Below, piece by piece: positions 54,505 through 62,903 of a DNA stretch of 64,000 nt (within the stretch, counting starts at the first letter, position 1; each line of letters opens with the position of its first letter). Below the pieces are notes generated by a model. The model did not search any database. It was given only the letters and a program-made list of their open reading frames with translations, and was not told the origin of the DNA. The translations under genes were made by a program, and so were the position numbers. Source of the stretch: Varibaculum massiliense (GTDB lineage Bacteria; Actinomycetota; Actinomycetes; Actinomycetales; Actinomycetaceae); assembly GCF_900106855.1 (NCBI RefSeq), contig NZ_FNWI01000004.1:62001-126000 (forward strand), given 5' to 3'.

Positions 54505-54552
54505 ATTAGGGGCGGATAGCTAGGGGCGGGGCTTACTTTGATGCTGCCTCCC

Positions 54553-57500
54553 CTAGCGAAAGTCCCGGGATTTGCTTTCTACCGGCAGGTTTAACGGCTC
54601 GATTTTATCTGCCAGCAGAGCTAAGGCGCCGTCTTTAGCTTGCAGAACTCCCCGCACGATGAGGGCGTTTTGACTGAGGGCGAGGCGGCGGTAACGCTGC
54701 CAGCAACCAACCTGGCAGATCACGTTTACCAGCCCGGTTTCGTCTTCTAAAGATAAAAACACTACTCCTTTGGCGGTGTGGGGACGTTGGCGATGCGTAA
54801 CTAGCCCCGCGCACCGGATACGTTTGCCCGCTAAAGCTGGGCGCAGCTGAGCGGCTGGAAGGATTCCGCGGCGGGTAAGATCTGGTCGCACCAGCTTCGT
54901 GGGGTACCCCCATAGGCTAATTCCCAGGGCAGAGCTATCCCATTTTACTTGTTCCCCGGTGGCTAAAGGCGCGAAGTTAGGTGTCGCCTCGCTGAGGGCT
55001 AGCCCCGGCAGTTCTGGCTGGTAAAAGTGGTTTTGCGAGGAAGATAAGAGGGGTGCGCGCCAGAGACCTTCGCGGCGGGTGATCCCCAGGGAAGACAGCG
55101 CACCCGAGCCAGCCAGCAGTTCTAGCGCCGAAGTGGGCAGGCGGACGCGGGAAGTAAAATCCTCCAGGGTTTTAAAGGAACCAGCTTCGCGGGCATGCAA
55201 GATGTTTTCTATCCATACCGGGCGCATCCCGCGGATCTCCGCTAGCCCCAGGTTTAGGGAGGTCAGCCCCTCCCCGGGAACGGAATCTTTCTGGGAGGTG
55301 TTCACGTCTGGGCGTAAGATTTTTATTCCGTGGCGGCGGGCGTCAGAGATTAACGATTGCGGGGAATAAAAACCCATCGGCTGGTTAGCAAGGATCGCGG
55401 CGTAAAAAACCGCGGGATAATAGGCTTTTAGCCAGGCGGAGGCATACACCAGGTAAGCGAAGGAAAAAGCGTGGGATTCTGGGAAACCAAATTCGGCGAA
55501 GCCAGACATCTGCGCCCAGATTTTTTCTTGTATCGGCAGCGGGATCTGGTTCTTTTCCATGCCCCGAAAAAACTCGGCGCGCAAATCAGCCAGGTGCTCC
55601 CCCGGGATTTTGCGTCCCATCGCCCGGCGCAGGTTATCTGATTGGGAACCGTTAAACCCGGCGGCGTCTTTGGCGATCCGCATTAGTTGTTCTTGAAAAA
55701 GCGGCACCCCTAAGGTGCGTTCCAGGGCGGGTTTTAGCAGCGGATGCAGGTAGGTGACTTTTTCACGCCCTAAGCGGCGCGCCAAATAGGGGTTTACGGC
55801 TTGCCCTTGGATCGGGCCGGGGCGAATCAATGCCACTTCGATTACCAGGTCATAGAAGCATTTAGGTTTCAGGCGCGGCAAAGTAGACATTTGGGCGCGG
55901 GACTCGACCTGGAAAACCCCGACGGTATCGGCTGCCTGTAATAGCTGGTAGACGCGGGGATCTTCCGGGGGTAAGTTATGTAGGCGCCAGGGCTCTCCGG
56001 AGGGTGATTTTTCGCCCCGTGCCTGCAAAGTTTCAAAAGCAGTGCGCAGCGCCCCCATCATCCCCAGGGAGAGTAAATCGATTTTCACTAACCCGGCTTC
56101 GGCGCAGCTATCTTTATCCCATTGCACCACGGTGCGCCCCGGCATATTCGCCCAGTTAATCGCGGACACTTCGGTAAGCGGCTTATCGGAAAGCACCATG
56201 CCCCCGCAGTGAATCCCCAGGTGACGCGGAAGTTTTTGTAGCTGTCCCGCTATTTTTCGTACGTTTTCCGGTAAAGAGTTCCCGTCTAGCCGCGCCCATT
56301 TCGCGGCGGTCTTGGCGTCATATCCGAGGGCGCGGGAGGCGTCTTTTAGCGCGGCTCGCGGGCGATAAGTAATCACATTAGCCACTTGAGCGGCATTTTC
56401 CCGGCCATATTTGTTATAGACGTGCTGCAGCACTTTTTCGCGTTGATTAGATTCGATATCTAGGTCTATATCGGGCAGATCTTTGCGGTCGGGGGTTAAA
56501 AAACGGTCGAATAGCATCTGGTGGCGCACCGCATCTACCGCGGTGATTCCCAGGCAGTAACAGACCGCCGAGTTGGCGGCGGAGCCGCGTCCTTGCACGT
56601 AAATACCGGAGGAAAAACAGTAGTCAACTATTTCTTTCACAATCAGGAAATACCCGGAGAATCCTTTTTGGAAAATCACTTTCAATTCTTGCCGAATTGT
56701 GTCTGCCGCTTTTTCCGGCACCGGATCCCCGTAGCGGCTACGCGCTCCCTGCCAGGAAAGCTGCTCTAGGTAGGAGTCGGCGCTATATCCGGGCGGCACC
56801 CGGGCTAAAGGCAGATGCGGCTCGGGGGTAGAAAAATCAAAAATCAGATCTTTTCCGATTGCGGCAGCATTTTCGAGGGCGTGGGGAATCTGCTGGTAGA
56901 TACGGCGCAGTTGTTCTGGAGACCGCAACATGGCGTGGGAGGCGGGGAGGTGGTCTTGGACTTTATCTAGGGGCAGGCGGTGGCGGGTGGCAGTCATAAC
57001 GTCTGCCAGGCGCTGACTGGCGGGGTCAGCGCAGCGGGCAGCGCTGGTGGCTACTAAGGGTAGCTTGGTTTTGCGCGCCAAGTGATCTAGTTGCGCCGCT
57101 AGACGCTCTTCCCCATCGAAACCAGCTAAGGCGGCCTCTACCACAACGTTTTCTGCCCCAAACATCTCTTTTAGTTGCTCAAGGAAGCGAGCTGCCGCCG
57201 CGATTCCGGAGCGGTAAAGTACGCGCCGCAGCGGTCCGGCGCGGGTGCCGGTTAATACTAGCCACTGCCCTTTCGCCCAGGAGGCTAGTGCGTCCAGATT
57301 TTGTCGGTCTGCCTCCCGCCTACCAGCAGCTAGATGATGGGCGCTGATCGCCCCAGTTAAAGCAGAATACCCCTGGTCAGATCGGCAAATCACCGGCAGA
57401 TGGGTTTCGTTCTCTAAAGTAAATTCGCATCCCGGCAAAAAAGCGAGACCGGCTTTGCGAGCAGCGGCGCGCGCCTCCATCAACCCGTAAACTCCGTCAT

Positions 57501-57624
57501 AATCAAGTAGCGCTAGGCCAGATAGCCCCAGCTTTTTCGCCCCGCGTACCATTTCGCGCGGCGAACACGCCCCCACTGCAAAGGAATATGCCGAATGGGC
57601 GTGCAACTCGATATAGCCGCTCAT
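54553..57624 (-). CDS. dnaE2: error-prone DNA polymerase III alpha subunit DnaE2 (ImuC)
   Basis: The 1023-residue C-family polymerase has a PHP domain (ELHAHSAYSFAVGACSPREMV), catalytic aspartates in PDIDLDIESN, QGRGSAANSAVCYCLGI, the finger and thumb region, and a C-terminal OB domain. It performs mutagenic lesion bypass with ImuA' and ImuB. ATG at 57624 overlaps the imuB stop (ATGA) and has GGGAGGGG 5 nt upstream; longer in-frame starts fall inside imuB. It is last in the SOS operon. Confidence 0.95.
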   Translation of the reverse strand: MSGYIELHAHSAYSFAVGACSPREMVRGAKKLGLSGLALLDYDGVYGLMEARAAARKAGLAFLPGCEFTLENETHLPVICRSDQGYSALTGAISAHHLAAGRREADRQNLDALASWAKGQWLVLTGTRAGPLRRVLYRSGIAAAARFLEQLKEMFGAENVVVEAALAGFDGEERLAAQLDHLARKTKLPLVATSAARCADPASQRLADVMTATRHRLPLDKVQDHLPASHAMLRSPEQLRRIYQQIPHALENAAAIGKDLIFDFSTPEPHLPLARVPPGYSADSYLEQLSWQGARSRYGDPVPEKAADTIRQELKVIFQKGFSGYFLIVKEIVDYCFSSGIYVQGRGSAANSAVCYCLGITAVDAVRHQMLFDRFLTPDRKDLPDIDLDIESNQREKVLQHVYNKYGRENAAQVANVITYRPRAALKDASRALGYDAKTAAKWARLDGNSLPENVRKIAGQLQKLPRHLGIHCGGMVLSDKPLTEVSAINWANMPGRTVVQWDKDSCAEAGLVKIDLLSLGMMGALRTAFETLQARGEKSPSGEPWRLHNLPPEDPRVYQLLQAADTVGVFQVESRAQMSTLPRLKPKCFYDLVIEVALIRPGPIQGQAVNPYLARRLGREKVTYLHPLLKPALERTLGVPLFQEQLMRIAKDAAGFNGSQSDNLRRAMGRKIPGEHLADLRAEFFRGMEKNQIPLPIQEKIWAQMSGFAEFGFPESHAFSFAYLVYASAWLKAYYPAVFYAAILANQPMGFYSPQSLISDARRHGIKILRPDVNTSQKDSVPGEGLTSLNLGLAEIRGMRPVWIENILHAREAGSFKTLEDFTSRVRLPTSALELLAGSGALSSLGITRREGLWRAPLLSSSQNHFYQPELPGLALSEATPNFAPLATGEQVKWDSSALGISLWGYPTKLVRPDLTRRGILPAAQLRPALAGKRIRCAGLVTHRQRPHTAKGVVFLSLEDETGLVNVICQVGCWQRYRRLALSQNALIVRGVLQAKDGALALLADKIEPLNLPVESKSRDFR

Positions 57625-59195
57625 TTTTGCCCCTCCCAGGCATCTAACCACCAGGAGGATTTGCGGAACACCAGCAGTAAGGTTTCTTGCTCGCCGTAGA
57701 CTCGCAGGAAAATTCGGGGACCTAGGTGATTGGGAACCCCGGGGCGCCACCACTGTCCATTTATCGGCCAAGGCCCCTCGGTTTTCTGCACCTCGATTTT
57801 CCGTCCGGCTACCTGCACCCATTTGACCGGGGATTTTAGCTGTCCGTCTCGTCCGGGCAGAATTTTCCGGCCGCGACTATCGATAATTCCCGCCGGTTTG
57901 GGGTGCATGAAAACTATTTCCGGTGCCACCCCGGTAAGCGCCCCGACTCTAGGGCGCGGCCGCTTTTGCCTCCCCCGCTCTTGCCAAGGTTTCAGTTCAA
58001 TCACTGAACGCGGATCATATCCACTGGTTAATTGAGGTACCCGCACCCCGCATTTACCTAATAAAGAGCTGGCACTGCGGGCTGCCTGCTCGACTTCCTG
58101 GGGAGGATCGGCGTTCCTACCCCAAAGCGGGGTCATCGCCTGTCGGGCATCTACCGCCCGCAAGGGATGCAGCTCGATCTGGGAGACCGCCCCTAGGGCT
58201 TCGCTGCCGCTACCTCCAACCGTAACCGCTTCTAACTGGTATTTTATCCTCTCTACTAGGTCTTTGCTGCTAACCTCTACCCCCAGGTTCCAGCTGCGGC
58301 TAAGTAATTTCCCGTTTTCACAGCGGCAAATAAACTGCACCTGGGTGCACACCTGCCCGCTCGCGCGCAGGCGGGCATACATTTCCACCACTAACGCCCG
58401 GGCGGGCAGTAACAGCTGGGTAAGGGAGCTGGCGGGCGGGGTGAAGAATTGGTAGAGACCGGGTGAGGCGGGCGCGGTTTTCACCCGGGCAGCCTCCTCT
58501 AGGTTTTCCCCGCTCGCTAAGTCGTAACTAATCGCTCCCAGGGTGCCGAAACGACGGATTAATGCCGGGCGTCCCAGGGCGCACATTTGCCCCAAACTGG
58601 TGATTCCCAAATGGGTTAGGCTGTCTGTCATTTTTGTTAGGTAGTGGTCGGAGAAATCGAATCCGCTTATTTTTATCCCCGGACGTAAGAAAAATCCCAG
58701 GCTACTTAGGGGCTCTGCGCTAAGAAGAGGCTTTACCCCAGAATCAGAAACCAGTAGCTGTTCGCGGGCAGCTAGACACGCCGCCAAAGTACCCCGAGCA
58801 ATCCCGATCTGCACCGCGAACCCTACCTGCGCTAACTGTTCGGTTAGTTCTGCGGCCAGGGCGGATTCTGCGTGGCGCTGACTGCGACTTAAAGCGGCGG
58901 TCACCAGCCCCGGAAACCAGCTCTTGGGGGCATATAGTTGCTGGGCTGCGACCTCGATAACCGGTTGAAACGCTAGTTCCGCCTCTGCCAGCGAGTAGGA
59001 TTTTTCTTTCAGGGAGGGGCAGAGGACGCGCGCTTGCTTTAGTCGCATCTGCGGCCTTATTCCGGCGGCGCGTGCCGGAGCCGTGACTGCCTGCACCCGC
59101 CCGCCACTGCACAGCGCCACCGCTTCATCTAGGGGAAGTTTGGCGGCTTGGGCTGGCCACTCGGGGATATAGAGGGCTAGCAATCTATCGTTCAT
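57621..59195 (-). CDS. imuB: ImuB, catalytically inactive Y-family polymerase-like protein
   Basis: The 524-residue protein has the Y-family fold (LALYIPEWPAQAAKL; helix-hairpin region HLGITSLGQMCALGRPALIRRFG; little-finger domain), but the metal-binding acidic residues are missing: the N-terminal DxD-type position reads IPEW, and no SxDE motif is present. ImuB proteins recruit DnaE2 and the beta clamp without synthesis of their own. The C-terminal part is the family's extension for partner contacts. GAGGAGG lies 5 nt before the ATG, inside a small coupled ORF. Confidence 0.92.
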   Translation of the reverse strand: MNDRLLALYIPEWPAQAAKLPLDEAVALCSGGRVQAVTAPARAAGIRPQMRLKQARVLCPSLKEKSYSLAEAELAFQPVIEVAAQQLYAPKSWFPGLVTAALSRSQRHAESALAAELTEQLAQVGFAVQIGIARGTLAACLAAREQLLVSDSGVKPLLSAEPLSSLGFFLRPGIKISGFDFSDHYLTKMTDSLTHLGITSLGQMCALGRPALIRRFGTLGAISYDLASGENLEEAARVKTAPASPGLYQFFTPPASSLTQLLLPARALVVEMYARLRASGQVCTQVQFICRCENGKLLSRSWNLGVEVSSKDLVERIKYQLEAVTVGGSGSEALGAVSQIELHPLRAVDARQAMTPLWGRNADPPQEVEQAARSASSLLGKCGVRVPQLTSGYDPRSVIELKPWQERGRQKRPRPRVGALTGVAPEIVFMHPKPAGIIDSRGRKILPGRDGQLKSPVKWVQVAGRKIEVQKTEGPWPINGQWWRPGVPNHLGPRIFLRVYGEQETLLLVFRKSSWWLDAWEGQK

Positions 59196-59296
59196 CGCGC
59201 CCTCCTCGCCTTAATCGGGATAGCTGAGAGAAAGCGAAACAGCAGGTACAAACTTAATAACGCCGGTAGCGTGGTTGCAGAGCGCAGAGTATCCAT
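59192..59296 (-). CDS. 34-residue microprotein ORF coupled to imuA' and imuB
   Basis: The ATG at 59296 overlaps the imuA' stop (TGATG) and has AAGGTG 8 nt upstream (59305-59310). The TGA at 59194-59192 overlaps the imuB ATG (ATGA). The product has a polar start, a hydrophobic centre (LPALLSLYLLFRFLSAIPI, about residues 10-28) and a basic end (KARRAR), so it could be a membrane or amphipathic peptide. No family is recognised. The double overlap and ribosome binding site argue for a translated gene; it may instead serve only to carry ribosomes to imuB. Confidence 0.55.
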   Translation of the reverse strand: MDTLRSATTLPALLSLYLLFRFLSAIPIKARRAR

Positions 59297-59781
59297 CAGG
59301 CACTCACCTTTATAGCGGTTGCTACCCCAGGGGAACTTGTAGCAGGCAGGGCGCTAGCTTCTAGGGAGATAGCGCCCGCCCAGGCCGGCGCAGACAAGAT
59401 TACGCAGCCGGAGCGGCGTGCTTTCGCGGTTAAGATCCGTTGTTGCTGCGGGCCATAATCTACCATCCCGATAGCCAGGACTGCCGCGCAGGGGACGAAA
59501 AGTTGGGCGCATGCCAGGGCGCTGCCGCCGGTATAGGGAATGGTGATTACCCGCCTTAAGTCCAGGCCGATTTGCCAGGCACGCTGCCAGCCTAAATCCG
59601 GAAAGTCTAGGAACACTGCCCAGCCGCTCTCCCCCATTTTTTCGGCGGCCATCTCTAGCAGCCCAGCTCCGCCCGCTACTTTTTGATAAGCGCTAGCCAG
59701 CGGCTTTGGGATGCGAGACTGCATCCCCAAAACCTGGCGCGCCTTTTCCAGGCGCTGCAACTGAGCCAACTTATCGAACAT
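59296..59781 (-). CDS. imuA': ImuA' accessory protein of the SOS mutasome
   Basis: The 161-residue protein lies first in the operon before imuB and dnaE2. It has a RecA-like outline without a Walker A motif (GGAGLLEMAAEKMGESGWAVFLDFP, then ITIPYTGGSALACAQLFVPCAAVLAIG). This fits the actinobacterial ImuA' group, which binds ImuB. ATG at 59781 lies 7 nt after a perfect TATAAT and within a LexA box. A GTG 36 nt upstream coincides with the -35 hexamer, so it is not the start. Confidence 0.85.
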   Translation of the reverse strand: MFDKLAQLQRLEKARQVLGMQSRIPKPLASAYQKVAGGAGLLEMAAEKMGESGWAVFLDFPDLGWQRAWQIGLDLRRVITIPYTGGSALACAQLFVPCAAVLAIGMVDYGPQQQRILTAKARRSGCVILSAPAWAGAISLEASALPATSSPGVATAIKVSA

Positions 59782-59789
59782 ACGTTCGA
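59774..59789. promoter_or_regulatory. LexA (SOS) box over the imuA' transcription start
   Basis: TCGAACATACGTTCGA is a perfect match to the mycobacterial/actinobacterial SOS box TCGAAC-N4-GTTCGA. It abuts the -10 hexamer and covers the start codon, so LexA bound here would block the polymerase at the initiation point. Confidence 0.92.
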
Positions 59790-59817
59790 TTATAGGGAGC
59801 CTCCCCCGATTTGTCAC
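59789..59817 (-). promoter_or_regulatory. near-consensus promoter of the imu operon
   Basis: On the minus strand, GTGACA (59817-59812, five of six -35 bases) and TATAAT (59794-59789, exact -10) are separated by exactly 17 nt. The A of the ATG at 59781 is 8 nt beyond the -10, which implies a leaderless mRNA. Confidence 0.85.
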
Positions 59818-59898
59818 CCCTTTTTCCGGAATCAGTTTTGAGGTAGGAATGGGGTTATAAGTAAAGGGGAAAAGACATTTTAGGTGCGGACATTTCCC

Positions 59899-60177
59899 TT
59901 AAAAAAGGTCTGAGTGACTTCCGGTTGCAACTAGGGACAGCACCAGCACGTCGTCTTGCTTGTAGTAAATCAGCAACCAGTCTGGTTCAATATGACACTC
60001 TCGATATTTTACCCAGTTACCCGTTAGCGCATGGTCTCGACATTTTTCCGGTAAAGGAGTACCGCTTGCCAGAAGGTCAACGATCCTCTCTAGTTTTCCA
60101 AGGTCTTTTCCCCGCTTTTTAGCAATTTTCAGTTGTTTGCGAAACTGCGAGGAGTATTTAATGGCATAGTGCGCCAT
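59899..60177 (-). CDS. YafQ-family mRNA interferase toxin
   Basis: The 92-residue RelE-superfamily toxin has the full YafQ active site: His49 in RDHAL, His62 and Asp66 in CHIEPDWLLIY, His88 in TGSHSDLF, and the terminal Phe92. E. coli YafQ, of the same length, uses the equivalent residues to cut mRNA on the ribosome. It begins at the last base of the antitoxin stop region (1-nt overlap at 60177), so the two are one operon. Confidence 0.9.
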   Translation of the reverse strand: MAHYAIKYSSQFRKQLKIAKKRGKDLGKLERIVDLLASGTPLPEKCRDHALTGNWVKYRECHIEPDWLLIYYKQDDVLVLSLVATGSHSDLF

Positions 60178-60458
60178 TAGTCGTCCTCACTAAGAGCGGC
60201 AGCAAATGCTTCACGGGCACTTGCATAGCCGGGAACGCGAGGATCTTTGGCAATCTGTTCCGCCTCTAACATGGCGGCAATCGTCTCCCTATTGGGGTTG
60301 CCTAGTTGAATCTGAAAAGGAATGGCACGCTCGCGGATAGCTTGCCGCACGAAAACGTTAAACGCGGTAGAAATATTCATTCCCATCTCGTTAAACAGCT
60401 GATCCGCCTCTTTTTTCAAGGCTGCATCCATACGAATACTGATATTTGCTGTAGCCAC
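60177..60458 (-). CDS. DinJ/RelB-family antitoxin
   Basis: The 93-residue protein has an N-terminal ribbon-helix-helix (ISIRMDAALKKEADQLFNEMGMNISTAFNVFVRQAI) for operator binding, and a C-terminal acidic tail that would wrap the toxin. GTG at 60458 is the start because AAGGAGG lies 6-7 nt upstream; an ATG at 60518 precedes the promoter hexamers and is not credible. It should neutralise and co-repress with the YafQ toxin that follows. Confidence 0.88.
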   Translation of the reverse strand: MATANISIRMDAALKKEADQLFNEMGMNISTAFNVFVRQAIRERAIPFQIQLGNPNRETIAAMLEAEQIAKDPRVPGYASAREAFAAALSEDD

Positions 60459-60479
60459 AAAAGACCTCCTTTTACGTAC

Positions 60480-60508
60480 ATAGTATGCTAGACGCACGAA
60501 TAAATCAA
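60480..60508 (-). promoter_or_regulatory. promoter of the dinJ-yafQ-like operon
   Basis: On the minus strand TTGATT (60508-60503) and TACTAT (60485-60480) are 17 nt apart and about 10-20 nt before the antitoxin ribosome binding site. Confidence 0.55.
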
Positions 60509-60518
60509 TACTTTTCAT

Positions 60519-60813
60519 GACAGAAGTAGTATTTAGAAATTACAGATAAACCCGGTAGCGTCTTCACTACAACGACTGCACGTAAGATCCCAAGGACGGA
60601 AGGAACCACGGACACTTTCTGGGCAAGAAAATCTACCTTTGAGGGCGGGCGGGAGCCTAGAAATCTGCCCGCTTGGCACGGGTTTTATGCCGCTTAGTTC
60701 AGATTACTTGTACTACCGGCAATGAGGCTTTTAACTGTAAGTACCAGATACGCAAGCACTCGCGTTTTGCTGATTATCGCCGGTAAGTGCGAGAGGAAAG
60801 GAGTCGGAACGGA
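60519..60813. other. intergenic region between the toxin-antitoxin operon and the LytTR gene
   Basis: No coding frame or known RNA is seen here. The only structure noted is GCGGGC (60645-60650) with GCCCGC (60667-60672). A weak -35/-10 pair (TTGTAC and TTAACT, 17 nt apart) precedes the LytTR gene and is not strong enough to claim. Confidence 0.5.
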
Positions 60814-61287
60814 ATGAAATTCACGCTCACGATTGATCCCACCGTAACCGAAACTATCGTGACGGTAACGGCGCGGGAGGTCGACGCTGAGGTGCAAGCG
60901 ATCCAAAGGCTCGCCTCCGGTAGCCTAGATAGCTCCTCCTCCCCCGCAGTCGAGCGCCCGCTTCGCCGCCTCATCGGGACAAGCGGCAATGACGCCACGG
61001 TGCTGGAAGTGCGCTCGATACTCGCGTTCTTTACTAAAAAGAAAGTGGTGTATGCCCACACCAGTAACGGTGATTGGCGAATTAAAACCCGAATGTATGA
61101 ACTCGAAGAATCTCTACCTGCAGGCGATTTCGTACGTATTTCGCAATCAGAAATCGTCAATATTGCCGCGATCAAAAAACTTGATCTTTCTTTCTCGGGA
61201 ACGATCAGTGTGCAGCTAAAAGATGGCTCTCGCTATTACGTTTCCCGCCGGCAACTTCCAGCTTTTAAATCCAAACTCGGACTCTAA
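60814..61287 (+). CDS. LytTR-type DNA-binding transcriptional regulator
   Basis: The 157-residue protein has a short N-terminal part of about 55 residues and a LytTR DNA-binding domain at about 60-155: ILAFFTKKKVVYAHT, LEESLPAGDFVRISQSEIVNIAAIKKL, LKDGSRYYVSRRQLPAFKSKL. There is no receiver domain. ATG at 60814 has AAAGGAG 10 nt upstream. It is followed by a DUF3021 gene, the common partner of this stand-alone LytTR class. Confidence 0.88.
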   Translation: MKFTLTIDPTVTETIVTVTAREVDAEVQAIQRLASGSLDSSSSPAVERPLRRLIGTSGNDATVLEVRSILAFFTKKKVVYAHTSNGDWRIKTRMYELEESLPAGDFVRISQSEIVNIAAIKKLDLSFSGTISVQLKDGSRYYVSRRQLPAFKSKLGL

Positions 61288-61329
61288 CCCCCGCAGAAAA
61301 CCTCTAACTCATACGAAAGGATAAAACCC

Positions 61330-61773
61330 ATGAAAACTAAAAAAATAGTTGATCTCACCCTGGTAGGGGCTTGCATTGGAATCATTATCGGCACCAGTAT
61401 TGAACTTATTTTCTCTTCTCTTTCCTCCTCTAGCTATTACCCTGGAGCTCCAGAATTCTTAAATACTTTTGGTAACGAAAACGTGGCAGTACTAATTGAG
61501 CGGCTTATTTATGCAGCCTACGGCATCATTGGTAGCTTCGCGGGGTTGCTTTACCGTAACGAAACCCGACCGCTTATCCTCAATACCGCCATGCATTTCG
61601 GGATCATACTTATCTGCGGGATTGCTGCTGGCAGCTACCTTAAATGGTGGGGCTCTAGCTTCGATATGATCGGAGTAATCATCACAATAGCGCTTATCTA
61701 TCTGCTGATTTGGCTGTTTAATTGGTTAATGGCTCGCGCCGAAGTCAAAAAGATGAACCAAAAACTGCAATAA
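61330..61773 (+). CDS. DUF3021 family membrane protein
   Basis: The 147-residue protein has four predicted membrane helices (VDLTLVGACIGIIIGTSIELIF, LIYAAYGIIGSFAGLLY, LNTAMHFGIILICGIAAGSY, IGVIITIALIYLLIWLFNWL) and a charged C terminus. This is the DUF3021 layout. Such proteins pair with a LytTR regulator and are thought to hold it inactive at the membrane, by analogy with two-gene LytTR systems. ACGAAAGGATAAAACCC precedes the ATG, 42 nt after the regulator. Confidence 0.85.
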   Translation: MKTKKIVDLTLVGACIGIIIGTSIELIFSSLSSSSYYPGAPEFLNTFGNENVAVLIERLIYAAYGIIGSFAGLLYRNETRPLILNTAMHFGIILICGIAAGSYLKWWGSSFDMIGVIITIALIYLLIWLFNWLMARAEVKKMNQKLQ

Positions 61774-61785
61774 AGCCCTCCCGGA

Positions 61786-61815
61786 TTCCCGTTTACTCAA
61801 ATGGGTAAACGGGAA
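61786..61815. terminator. hairpin after the DUF3021 gene
   Basis: TTCCCGTTTAC (61786-61796) pairs perfectly with GTAAACGGGAA (61805-61815) around an 8-nt loop. No T tract follows, so its role as a terminator between converging genes is tentative. Confidence 0.45.
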
Positions 61816-61913
61816 AATCTAAAGCAGAGAATATGGTTTTAGACGCCACTAAACCAGGCGGGGCTAGGCGGGGTATTCAATCTAGCGAGAAAACGATTAA
61901 CGATTCTTAGCGG

Positions 61914-62903
61914 CTACTCGTTTTGTAGCTGCTCTATATATTGAGCCATTAGCTCACGGCGGAGATCAATGCGGCTTGTCATTTCTGCCATCAACTCACG
62001 CCATTCTTCCATTGAGGTCGGATTTTTGTTAGGCAACATTTTAGGTTTGTTTTCTTGGTCGAGCCATTCGTTGAGAAACAGCCTATCGCCGCTCTCTCTG
62101 CTTTTCTCAACTAAGGTATGAAATGGTGTTCCAACATCGCAATTCTTGCACATAAGTGGGTCTTCAAAATTGAAATAGTCAAAGTAATAACCCAAAGTTC
62201 GATCCCAATAATCTTCAGTACAGGTTGCCCGAGCGGAGTTAAATCCGTCGGGCACAATAATCAGATTCGCAGAAGTGTATGCAGATCGGATGAATTTTTG
62301 AAGTACCTCATCTCCCCAGAACTTTCGAAAGTTCTGTTTATCAGGTTCTTTTTCCATATCTTCGAGGAGAATCGGCGCATAGGTGTTATATCCACCAACA
62401 CCGTCTTTTACTCTTTTTGGGAAAAAATTCCGCAATTCATCATTCTCATTAACGAAAAGGATTAACCCTTTTCGGAAAGTAGTAGCCACTGAACACATCC
62501 AATCACCTTGGACGATTATTGCTTGTTCAGCACTGGAATTTTTTTCTCCGCGCACTTTGGCATTTAAATCTCCTAAAAGATCATCCCATATATACCGATA
62601 GAAATCTCGGGCTCCCTTAGAAGAATCAGGATCCTTAACTTTCTTCCCGTCATTATCTTTCAGTACATCAATTTTGTACTCAAGCCACGTGCGGACGTGT
62701 TTCTCACTCGGTTCTTCAGAAAGTGTGGGGTCCAATAAAAAACATTTAAGGTCAAAAAATCGGTCATAACACCACCTTAATAGTCGGTATACAAATCCGG
62801 AAGATGTTTGCACTAATGCCCCCAGGGAGCCCCCGGACTTTAGAAATGTTCCCGAAGCTGCGCGACTACAATGACCCTCGACCGGGCGGCTAGGCGCGAC
62901 CAC
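61914..62903 (-). CDS. unknown AT-rich gene
   Basis: The open frame gives up to 329 residues, but the first 40 or so look non-coding and the true start is unclear: in-frame GTG at 62903 and 62810 and TTG at 62735 are candidates, none with a good ribosome binding site. The soluble core is rich in Trp, Tyr and charged residues (VKDPDSSKGARDFYRYIWDD, QGDWMCSV, DRTLGYYFDYFNFED, SRIDLRRELMAQYIEQL). There is a faint resemblance to a small actinobacterial DUF (DUF6994-like: DPDS..R.Y..W and a terminal Arg-rich helix), not established. By eye, base composition is lower in GC than all neighbours, which suggests acquisition. Confidence 0.5.
   Translation of the reverse strand: MVAPSRPVEGHCSRAASGTFLKSGGSLGALVQTSSGFVYRLLRWCYDRFFDLKCFLLDPTLSEEPSEKHVRTWLEYKIDVLKDNDGKKVKDPDSSKGARDFYRYIWDDLLGDLNAKVRGEKNSSAEQAIIVQGDWMCSVATTFRKGLILFVNENDELRNFFPKRVKDGVGGYNTYAPILLEDMEKEPDKQNFRKFWGDEVLQKFIRSAYTSANLIIVPDGFNSARATCTEDYWDRTLGYYFDYFNFEDPLMCKNCDVGTPFHTLVEKSRESGDRLFLNEWLDQENKPKMLPNKNPTSMEEWRELMAEMTSRIDLRRELMAQYIEQLQNE

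Follow-up and report, generated by a model that had tools for sequence, protein, structure and literature searches.

The imuA'-imuB-dnaE2 operon and its small ORF

The DNA analysed here, a window of 64,000 nucleotides from Varibaculum massiliense, carries an SOS operon of imuA', imuB and dnaE2 on the minus strand (Table 1). The proteins of imuB and dnaE2 are recognised by Pfam domains. ImuA', which like the small ORF discussed below has zero Pfam matches, was recognised via the ImuA' proteins of relatives encoded at the same position. The named relatives of ImuB share 90-91% identity with it and come from two records of V. cambriense, one of V. vaginae and one titled Tissierella sp. Marseille-P2918. 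Between imuA' and imuB lies an ORF of 34 amino acids that runs on the minus strand from an ATG at 59296-59294 to a TGA at 59194-59192, in the -1 frame relative to imuA'. Its start codon shares one nucleotide with the imuA' stop (TGA 59298-59296), giving TGATG, and its stop is overlapped by the imuB ATG (59195-59193) over four nucleotides, giving ATGA. A Shine-Dalgarno sequence, AAGGTG, occupies 59310-59305 and ends 8 nt 5' of the ATG. These coordinates reproduce exactly an earlier, sequence-only reading of the locus.

Table 1. Features of the operon and its promoter region (window positions)
Feature	Position	Strand	Description
dnaE2 (imuC)	54553..57624	-	Pfam DNA_pol3_alpha and finger domains; ATG overlaps imuB stop (ATGA)
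imuB	57621..59195	-	524 aa; Pfam IMS, E 7e-10
34-codon ORF, candidate relay	59192..59296	-	ORF reading; open in all six Varibaculum species
imuB Shine-Dalgarno AGGAGG	59201..59206	-	within the 3' end of the 34-codon ORF; present in all six species
Conserved block	59294..59313	-	last imuA' codons with Shine-Dalgarno, imuA' stop and small-ORF start; alignment of six species
imuA'	59296..59781	-	161 aa from the likely start ATG inside the SOS box; tblastn and iterated profile
Presumed SOS (LexA) box	59774..59789	-	TCGAACGTATGTTCGA; sole exact pattern match in window; identical in six species
Promoter-like GTGACA-17-TATAAT	59789..59817	-	abuts the SOS box; 11 of 12 consensus matches

We compared the locus across six Varibaculum species, each represented by one genome. 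The start codon, the TGATG overlap, the Shine-Dalgarno and the open frame are found in every one of them. The end of the ORF overlaps imuB by 4 nt in five species and by 11 nt in the sixth (G005), where a 1-nt deletion beside the imuB Shine-Dalgarno produces a 36-codon frame ending 11 nt into an imuB that begins with GTG. The sequence-only reading had pointed to conserved overlaps in related genomes as support and to broken frames in close relatives as refutation: none of the six species has a broken frame, and the overlaps hold at the start throughout and at the end everywhere except in G005. The next junction, imuB-dnaE2, is likewise an ATGA overlap in five of the six species, so that the operon with its small ORF forms a chain of overlaps. 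In the remaining species (G002, locus L005) imuB is two codons shorter, ends in TAA and is followed by a dnaE2 start at about +2 nt, which means that strict overlap is not always kept.

The six copies may not all have separate histories. Sequence from dnaE2 to about 62 kb (54550-62000) is 87.5-95% identical between species, with the imu genes at 87.5-91.7%; genes beyond dnaE2 reach only about 70-83.5%, and the break falls at the end of dnaE2 in four of five comparisons. This pattern suggests that the 54550-62000 block, including the imu cassette, has probably been exchanged within the genus, and with such exchange between species the six copies amount to fewer than six independent tests.

The imuA'-imuB junction in related genera

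To place the gap between imuA' and imuB in context we gathered 101 loci (30 + 13 + 58) and dropped one with no ImuA' hit (L065). The 100 retained loci comprise six from Varibaculum and 94 others from the family and order. An in-frame imuB start lies within -11..+9 nt of the imuA' stop in 92 of these 94, a figure that does not describe a random sample, since 58 loci were hand-picked for genus spread among the matches listed (one from the first 30) and several loci share a genus. The commonest positions of the imuB start are -4, -1 and +1, and the remaining two loci overlap further. A gap of about 100 nt with no nearer imuB start occurs only in Varibaculum among the 100 loci. A wider set from the phylum held 28 loci from 34 genomes with matches, after exclusion of our own genome, one already counted and four with no locus. 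Three of the 28 were left unscored, one for having no ImuA' hit and two because of a frame overlap of about 60 nt. Within the same -11..+9 nt interval imuB starts in 20 of the 25 scored loci; the five exceptions are one overlap of 16 nt, starts at +12, +15 and +30, and a locus whose ImuB core lies 399 nt off. The last of these, L167, belongs to another family of the class, and its nearest in-frame start after the imuA' stop is a TTG at +33.

The ImuB core lies at least 20 nt from the imuA' stop in 33 of the 94 loci (two of them, L023 and L029, through a core start misplaced by the profile), and the N-terminal extensions in front of it are variable, often rich in Ala, Pro or Thr, and up to about 45 residues long. 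As imuB elsewhere starts at the imuA' stop, often with such an extension, the start of the Varibaculum ORF most likely sits at the position of the ancestral imuB start.

This arrangement raises the question of where the small ORF came from. It may be a detached coding remnant, separated by a frameshift from ImuA' (as its former C-terminal end) or from ImuB (as a former N-terminal extension), an origin that would be compatible with the coupling role proposed below and that we regard as possible, though we would not bet on it. In its favour, Varibaculum ImuA' proteins are among the shortest of the 100 loci (135-137 aa when counted from the profile hit to the stop, in a range of 129-356), and the variable extensions that about a third of relatives possess occupy exactly this site. 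These extensions do not align, however, so that no sequence similarity is demonstrable. Moreover, the residues IKVSA in front of the TGA of Varibaculum imuA' look, by eye, like those found near the C-terminus of ImuA' in many relatives (L/I, R/K, V), and the imuB frame 5' of the imuB ATG is closed in all six species, four of which share the same stop while the other two have different ones. With a very long branch (2.45) and an unsure sister, Varibaculum ImuB offers no close outgroup for tracing the origin of the ORF.

Translation signals and a candidate ribosome relay

The start signals on both sides of the gap were evaluated by their predicted duplex with the 16S tail. At the start of the small ORF it amounts to -8.5 to -9.8 kcal/mol across the six species, an energy matched by 6-11% of positions inside Varibaculum imuA'. 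The imuB gene has its own Shine-Dalgarno in Varibaculum at -10.8 to -12.7 kcal/mol. For comparison, imuB starts in the loci of 92 relatives have a median of -9.7 kcal/mol over a background of -4.4 inside imuA' genes.

We lean, by a modest degree, towards reading the small ORF as a genus-specific ribosome relay that keeps imuB coupled to imuA'. Ribosomes ending imuA' at TGATG would re-initiate on the overlapping ATG, with help from the Shine-Dalgarno that lies within the final codons of imuA'; they would then cross the gap of about 100 nt by translating 34 codons whose meaning does not matter, and terminate at the ATGA on the imuB start, from where imuB would be re-initiated with the help of its own strong Shine-Dalgarno. 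In this way imuA', imuB and dnaE2 would be held in a single coupled chain. Termination-reinitiation is reported to depend strongly on distance: with a gap of 38 nt, two E. coli gene pairs lost 80-90% of their reinitiation and a third lost it entirely (PMC10666635). By analogy, an untranslated gap of about 98 nt would be expected to uncouple imuA' and imuB, whereas an ORF ending in TGATG and ATGA would not. The two products are known partners in Mycobacterium smegmatis, where ImuA' and ImuB form a complex (PMC11791113).

If the relay reading is correct, the Varibaculum locus offers a natural experiment on subunit ratios in the mutasome and how tightly cells control them: once a gap had separated two coupled genes, the lineage retained across it an ORF that is otherwise without meaning. 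It would also carry a warning, namely that an unannotated mini-ORF in an operon may serve translation and encode no protein of note, even when it has start signals and looks hydrophobic or basic.

Coupling could in principle also involve RNA structure. Pairing of the imuB Shine-Dalgarno is predicted in all six species and clearly goes beyond shuffled sequences only in G003 and G005. Covariation is limited to one of 46 consensus pairs, with an unfavourable covariation term. Given this limited excess and the single covarying pair, a hairpin hiding the imuB Shine-Dalgarno until translation of the ORF opens it is possible, and we do not claim it. A structured RNA element finds no support in the covariation count, and an Rfam search of 58800-59950 returned zero matches to known families up to E 1. 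Inside the small ORF, at 59272-59260, lies a weak terminator-like hairpin; with 0.9 expected it is at chance level, and G003 and G004 do not preserve the stem.

Maintenance of the frame

The main rival to the relay follows from the strength of the imuB Shine-Dalgarno, since imuB may not need coupling. In this rival reading the roughly 100 nt are a functionless spacer, rich in pyrimidines and poor in A, in which a frame stays open by luck, and translation of imuB starts independently from AGGAGG. The ordinary strength of the small ORF's own Shine-Dalgarno fits such a spacer, which we nonetheless consider rather unlikely.

The evidence on how long a frame would stay open by drift falls on both sides. 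Simulations held the ATG and the last 20 nt fixed and took branch lengths from 78 columns. With substitutions only, run from seven root sequences, the frame remained open in all six species in 25-35% of runs (P ~0.3), which suits a neutral spacer. The outcome differs when insertions and deletions are allowed: at 0.05-0.12 indels per substitution a bridge, defined by a frame end within -10..+14 nt of the imuB start, survived in all six species in 0.3-6% of simulations (P 0.003-0.06, the range spanning rate and three root sequences). Syntenic intergenic regions of the genus yielded comparable measured rates of 0.07-0.14 indels per substitution, estimated from 29 gaps with 21-24 usable per species; the gap under study is itself among the 29, because a crude gene mask took the false ORF 58744-59112 in place of imuB. 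The imuA'-imuB gap has a single indel among the six species.

Further arguments come from conservation at the start and from other ORFs. The 20-nt start block varies in one of its 20 columns, compared with 33 of the 90 columns upstream of it and 44 of the 78 downstream (hypergeometric 1.8e-4; the block was picked once the alignment had been seen). Against a spacer, a Shine-Dalgarno and an ATG are kept exactly at the imuA' stop in every species, and nearly all relatives examined retain direct coupling at this junction. On the other hand, equal conservation is seen in 28 of the 157 six-codon windows of imuA', so that the ImuA' protein may explain that of the start block. As a control we considered the 32 intergenic ORFs of 25-60 codons in the window, of which eight could be mapped in all five other species, too small a number for a useful null. 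Two of the eight are kept in all five species, the ORF studied here and one at 60639-60725 on the plus strand; that one of the seven others is retained favours the spacer, as does a further ORF of 30 codons that occupies a different frame of this gap (59211-59303, minus strand) and is kept in four of five species. Overall, these results, which fall on both sides, give moderate support to upkeep of the frame and are suggestive, not proof.

Sequence drift of the encoded peptide

The encoded peptide itself is free to vary. Pooled over species pairs, pN/pS is 1.22 for the 27 codons compared in six species and 1.15 for the 34 codons compared in five, versus 0.21 for imuA' and 0.17 for imuB. All three codon positions contain variable columns (16, 16 and 12 of 27), and the tree length of codons 2-27 is 1.15, beside 0.87 for third positions and 0.17 for first and second positions of imuB. 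The three measures agree in that no purifying selection on the peptide is detectable, contrary to what is looked for in a functional small protein. A peptide that drifts while start, stop and length stay most likely marks a relay and not a new part of a protein complex.

The sequence-only reading had proposed a dN/dS test as a check, to which the pN/pS values correspond, and had described a hydrophobic centre and a basic tail. Both are present, but they carry less weight than their appearance suggests. The basic residues of the tail, KARRAR, come from reading the imuB Shine-Dalgarno region as codons. In every species the 17-residue stretch of highest hydrophobicity exceeds the average of shuffled open frames, but shuffles equal or surpass it with a frequency of 0.02-0.06 in G000, G001 and G002 and of 0.19-0.28 in the other three; the centre is weakest in G003 and in G005, which has prolines there together with a shifted C-terminus.

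These findings bear on the idea of an SOS-induced functional small peptide, perhaps a membrane peptide, acting for instance as a fourth mutasome component or a small regulator. Its place within an SOS operon and the hydrophobicity common to all six species speak for such a peptide. The pN/pS above 1, the weak stretch of G003 and G005, the derived tail and a search that found no similar peptide outside the genus make it improbable. That search, over 213 genomes of the family (207 of them non-Varibaculum), gave nothing at E < 0.1; it matched five of the six Varibaculum genomes and missed the copy in G005, so it is insensitive and diverged relatives would be missed. The pN/pS values and the weakness of the stretch in two species, G003 and G005, accordingly rule against a fourth subunit or membrane anchor as the leading idea, and the fourth small component that the sequence-only reading had suspected of anchoring or regulating the complex is disfavoured. 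Its other suggestion, that the ORF may only pass ribosomes to imuB, appears to be the best fit, since imuA' and imuB are as a rule directly coupled in relatives and the ORF bridges the gap with an overlap at each end.

A more specific variant would have a fast-evolving SOS-induced peptide of 34-36 aa, made in a coupled fixed ratio with ImuA' and ImuB, replace the ImuA' tail or an ImuB extension and tether the mutasome; we give it still less credence. ImuA' lacking its 40 C-terminal residues seemed to lose ImuB binding in a yeast two-hybrid assay (cited in PMC11791113), and the ImuA' of Varibaculum is a short one; a peptide that drifts, however, speaks against a substitute tail and makes the variant unlikely. 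Least credible of all is an ImuA' lengthened by the ORF through programmed frameshifting, for although the ORF lies in the -1 frame and an AAAGG stretch before the imuA' stop is conserved in the six-species alignment, no standard slippery heptamer is seen by eye and the peptide to be appended is unconserved.

Comparison with known short ORFs

The idea of a short ORF that exists only to deliver a ribosome has been published (review PMC12548453). Intercistronic translational-coupling ORFs have a start that overlaps or abuts the upstream stop and a stop that overlaps or abuts the downstream start; in Varibaculum the first overlap is found in six of six species and the exact -4 end in five. The small ORF most likely belongs to this known kind and is a real, genus-specific feature.

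Its closest known counterparts are ORF27 of E. coli iraD and the MIRU insertions of mycobacteria. ORF27 is a short ORF (27 aa) that drives iraD by translational coupling, its stop overlapping the iraD start; IraD is induced by DNA damage, and the Varibaculum ORF likewise lies in a damage operon. ORF27 differs in that it sits in a 5' leader, has been shown to be translated and is repressed by CsrA (PMC5574718), whereas the ORF described here is placed between two genes, overlaps both and is known from sequence alone. MIRU elements similarly supply a short ORF at a gene start, coupled at -4 nt, and their insertion is thought to affect expression little; they are repetitive and apparently mobile (PMC12548453), unlike the Varibaculum ORF, which has no near-identical second copy in the six genomes. 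A search of these genomes with the 105-nt sequence gave a best off-locus match of 25 nt (E 0.031); it missed the locus itself in G002 and scored it at E 0.19 in G005, so that diverged copies would escape. A mobile repeat of the MIRU type is rejected on the lack of a near-identical second copy in the six genomes.

Two further systems are more distant. Salmonella mgtQ is likewise a short ORF in an intergenic region, between mgtC and mgtB of one operon, and promotes translation of the gene that follows it, but it acts via specific codons and alternative stem-loops (PMC8092293), and neither conserved codons nor a covarying stem were found in the Varibaculum ORF. In Deinococcus deserti a small hypothetical gene of 243 bp is found within a mutagenesis cassette, in the imuY-imuC gap and thus at another position (PMC3901139); it is likened to the present ORF by description only. 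Among the literature matches listed, no published small protein was found at the imuA'-imuB position of imu operons.

SOS promoter region and neighbourhood

Upstream of imuA' the minus strand carries a promoter-like sequence abutting a site that, going by the general consensus pattern, we take to be an SOS (LexA) box, and the region covering both (59774-59817) is nearly identical across the six species. The ATG at 59781, inside the box, is likely the start of imuA'; with this start next to the promoter, the transcript of the SOS operon may be leaderless at its beginning. A LexA-type box was found with a relaxed pattern in 93 of the 100 imu loci, and an in-frame ATG or GTG lies at most 18 nt from the start of such a box in 28 of 100. 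An internal imuB promoter was rejected, as the sole minus-strand promoter-like site in 59100-59950 precedes imuA'.

A RelB/YafQ-type toxin-antitoxin pair is encoded at 59899-60518, just upstream of imuA'. The alignments of G003 and G002 skip this interval, so that the pair may be an insertion beside the SOS promoter. The retained plus-strand ORF at 60639-60725 comprises 28 codons and lies upstream of a LytTR gene.
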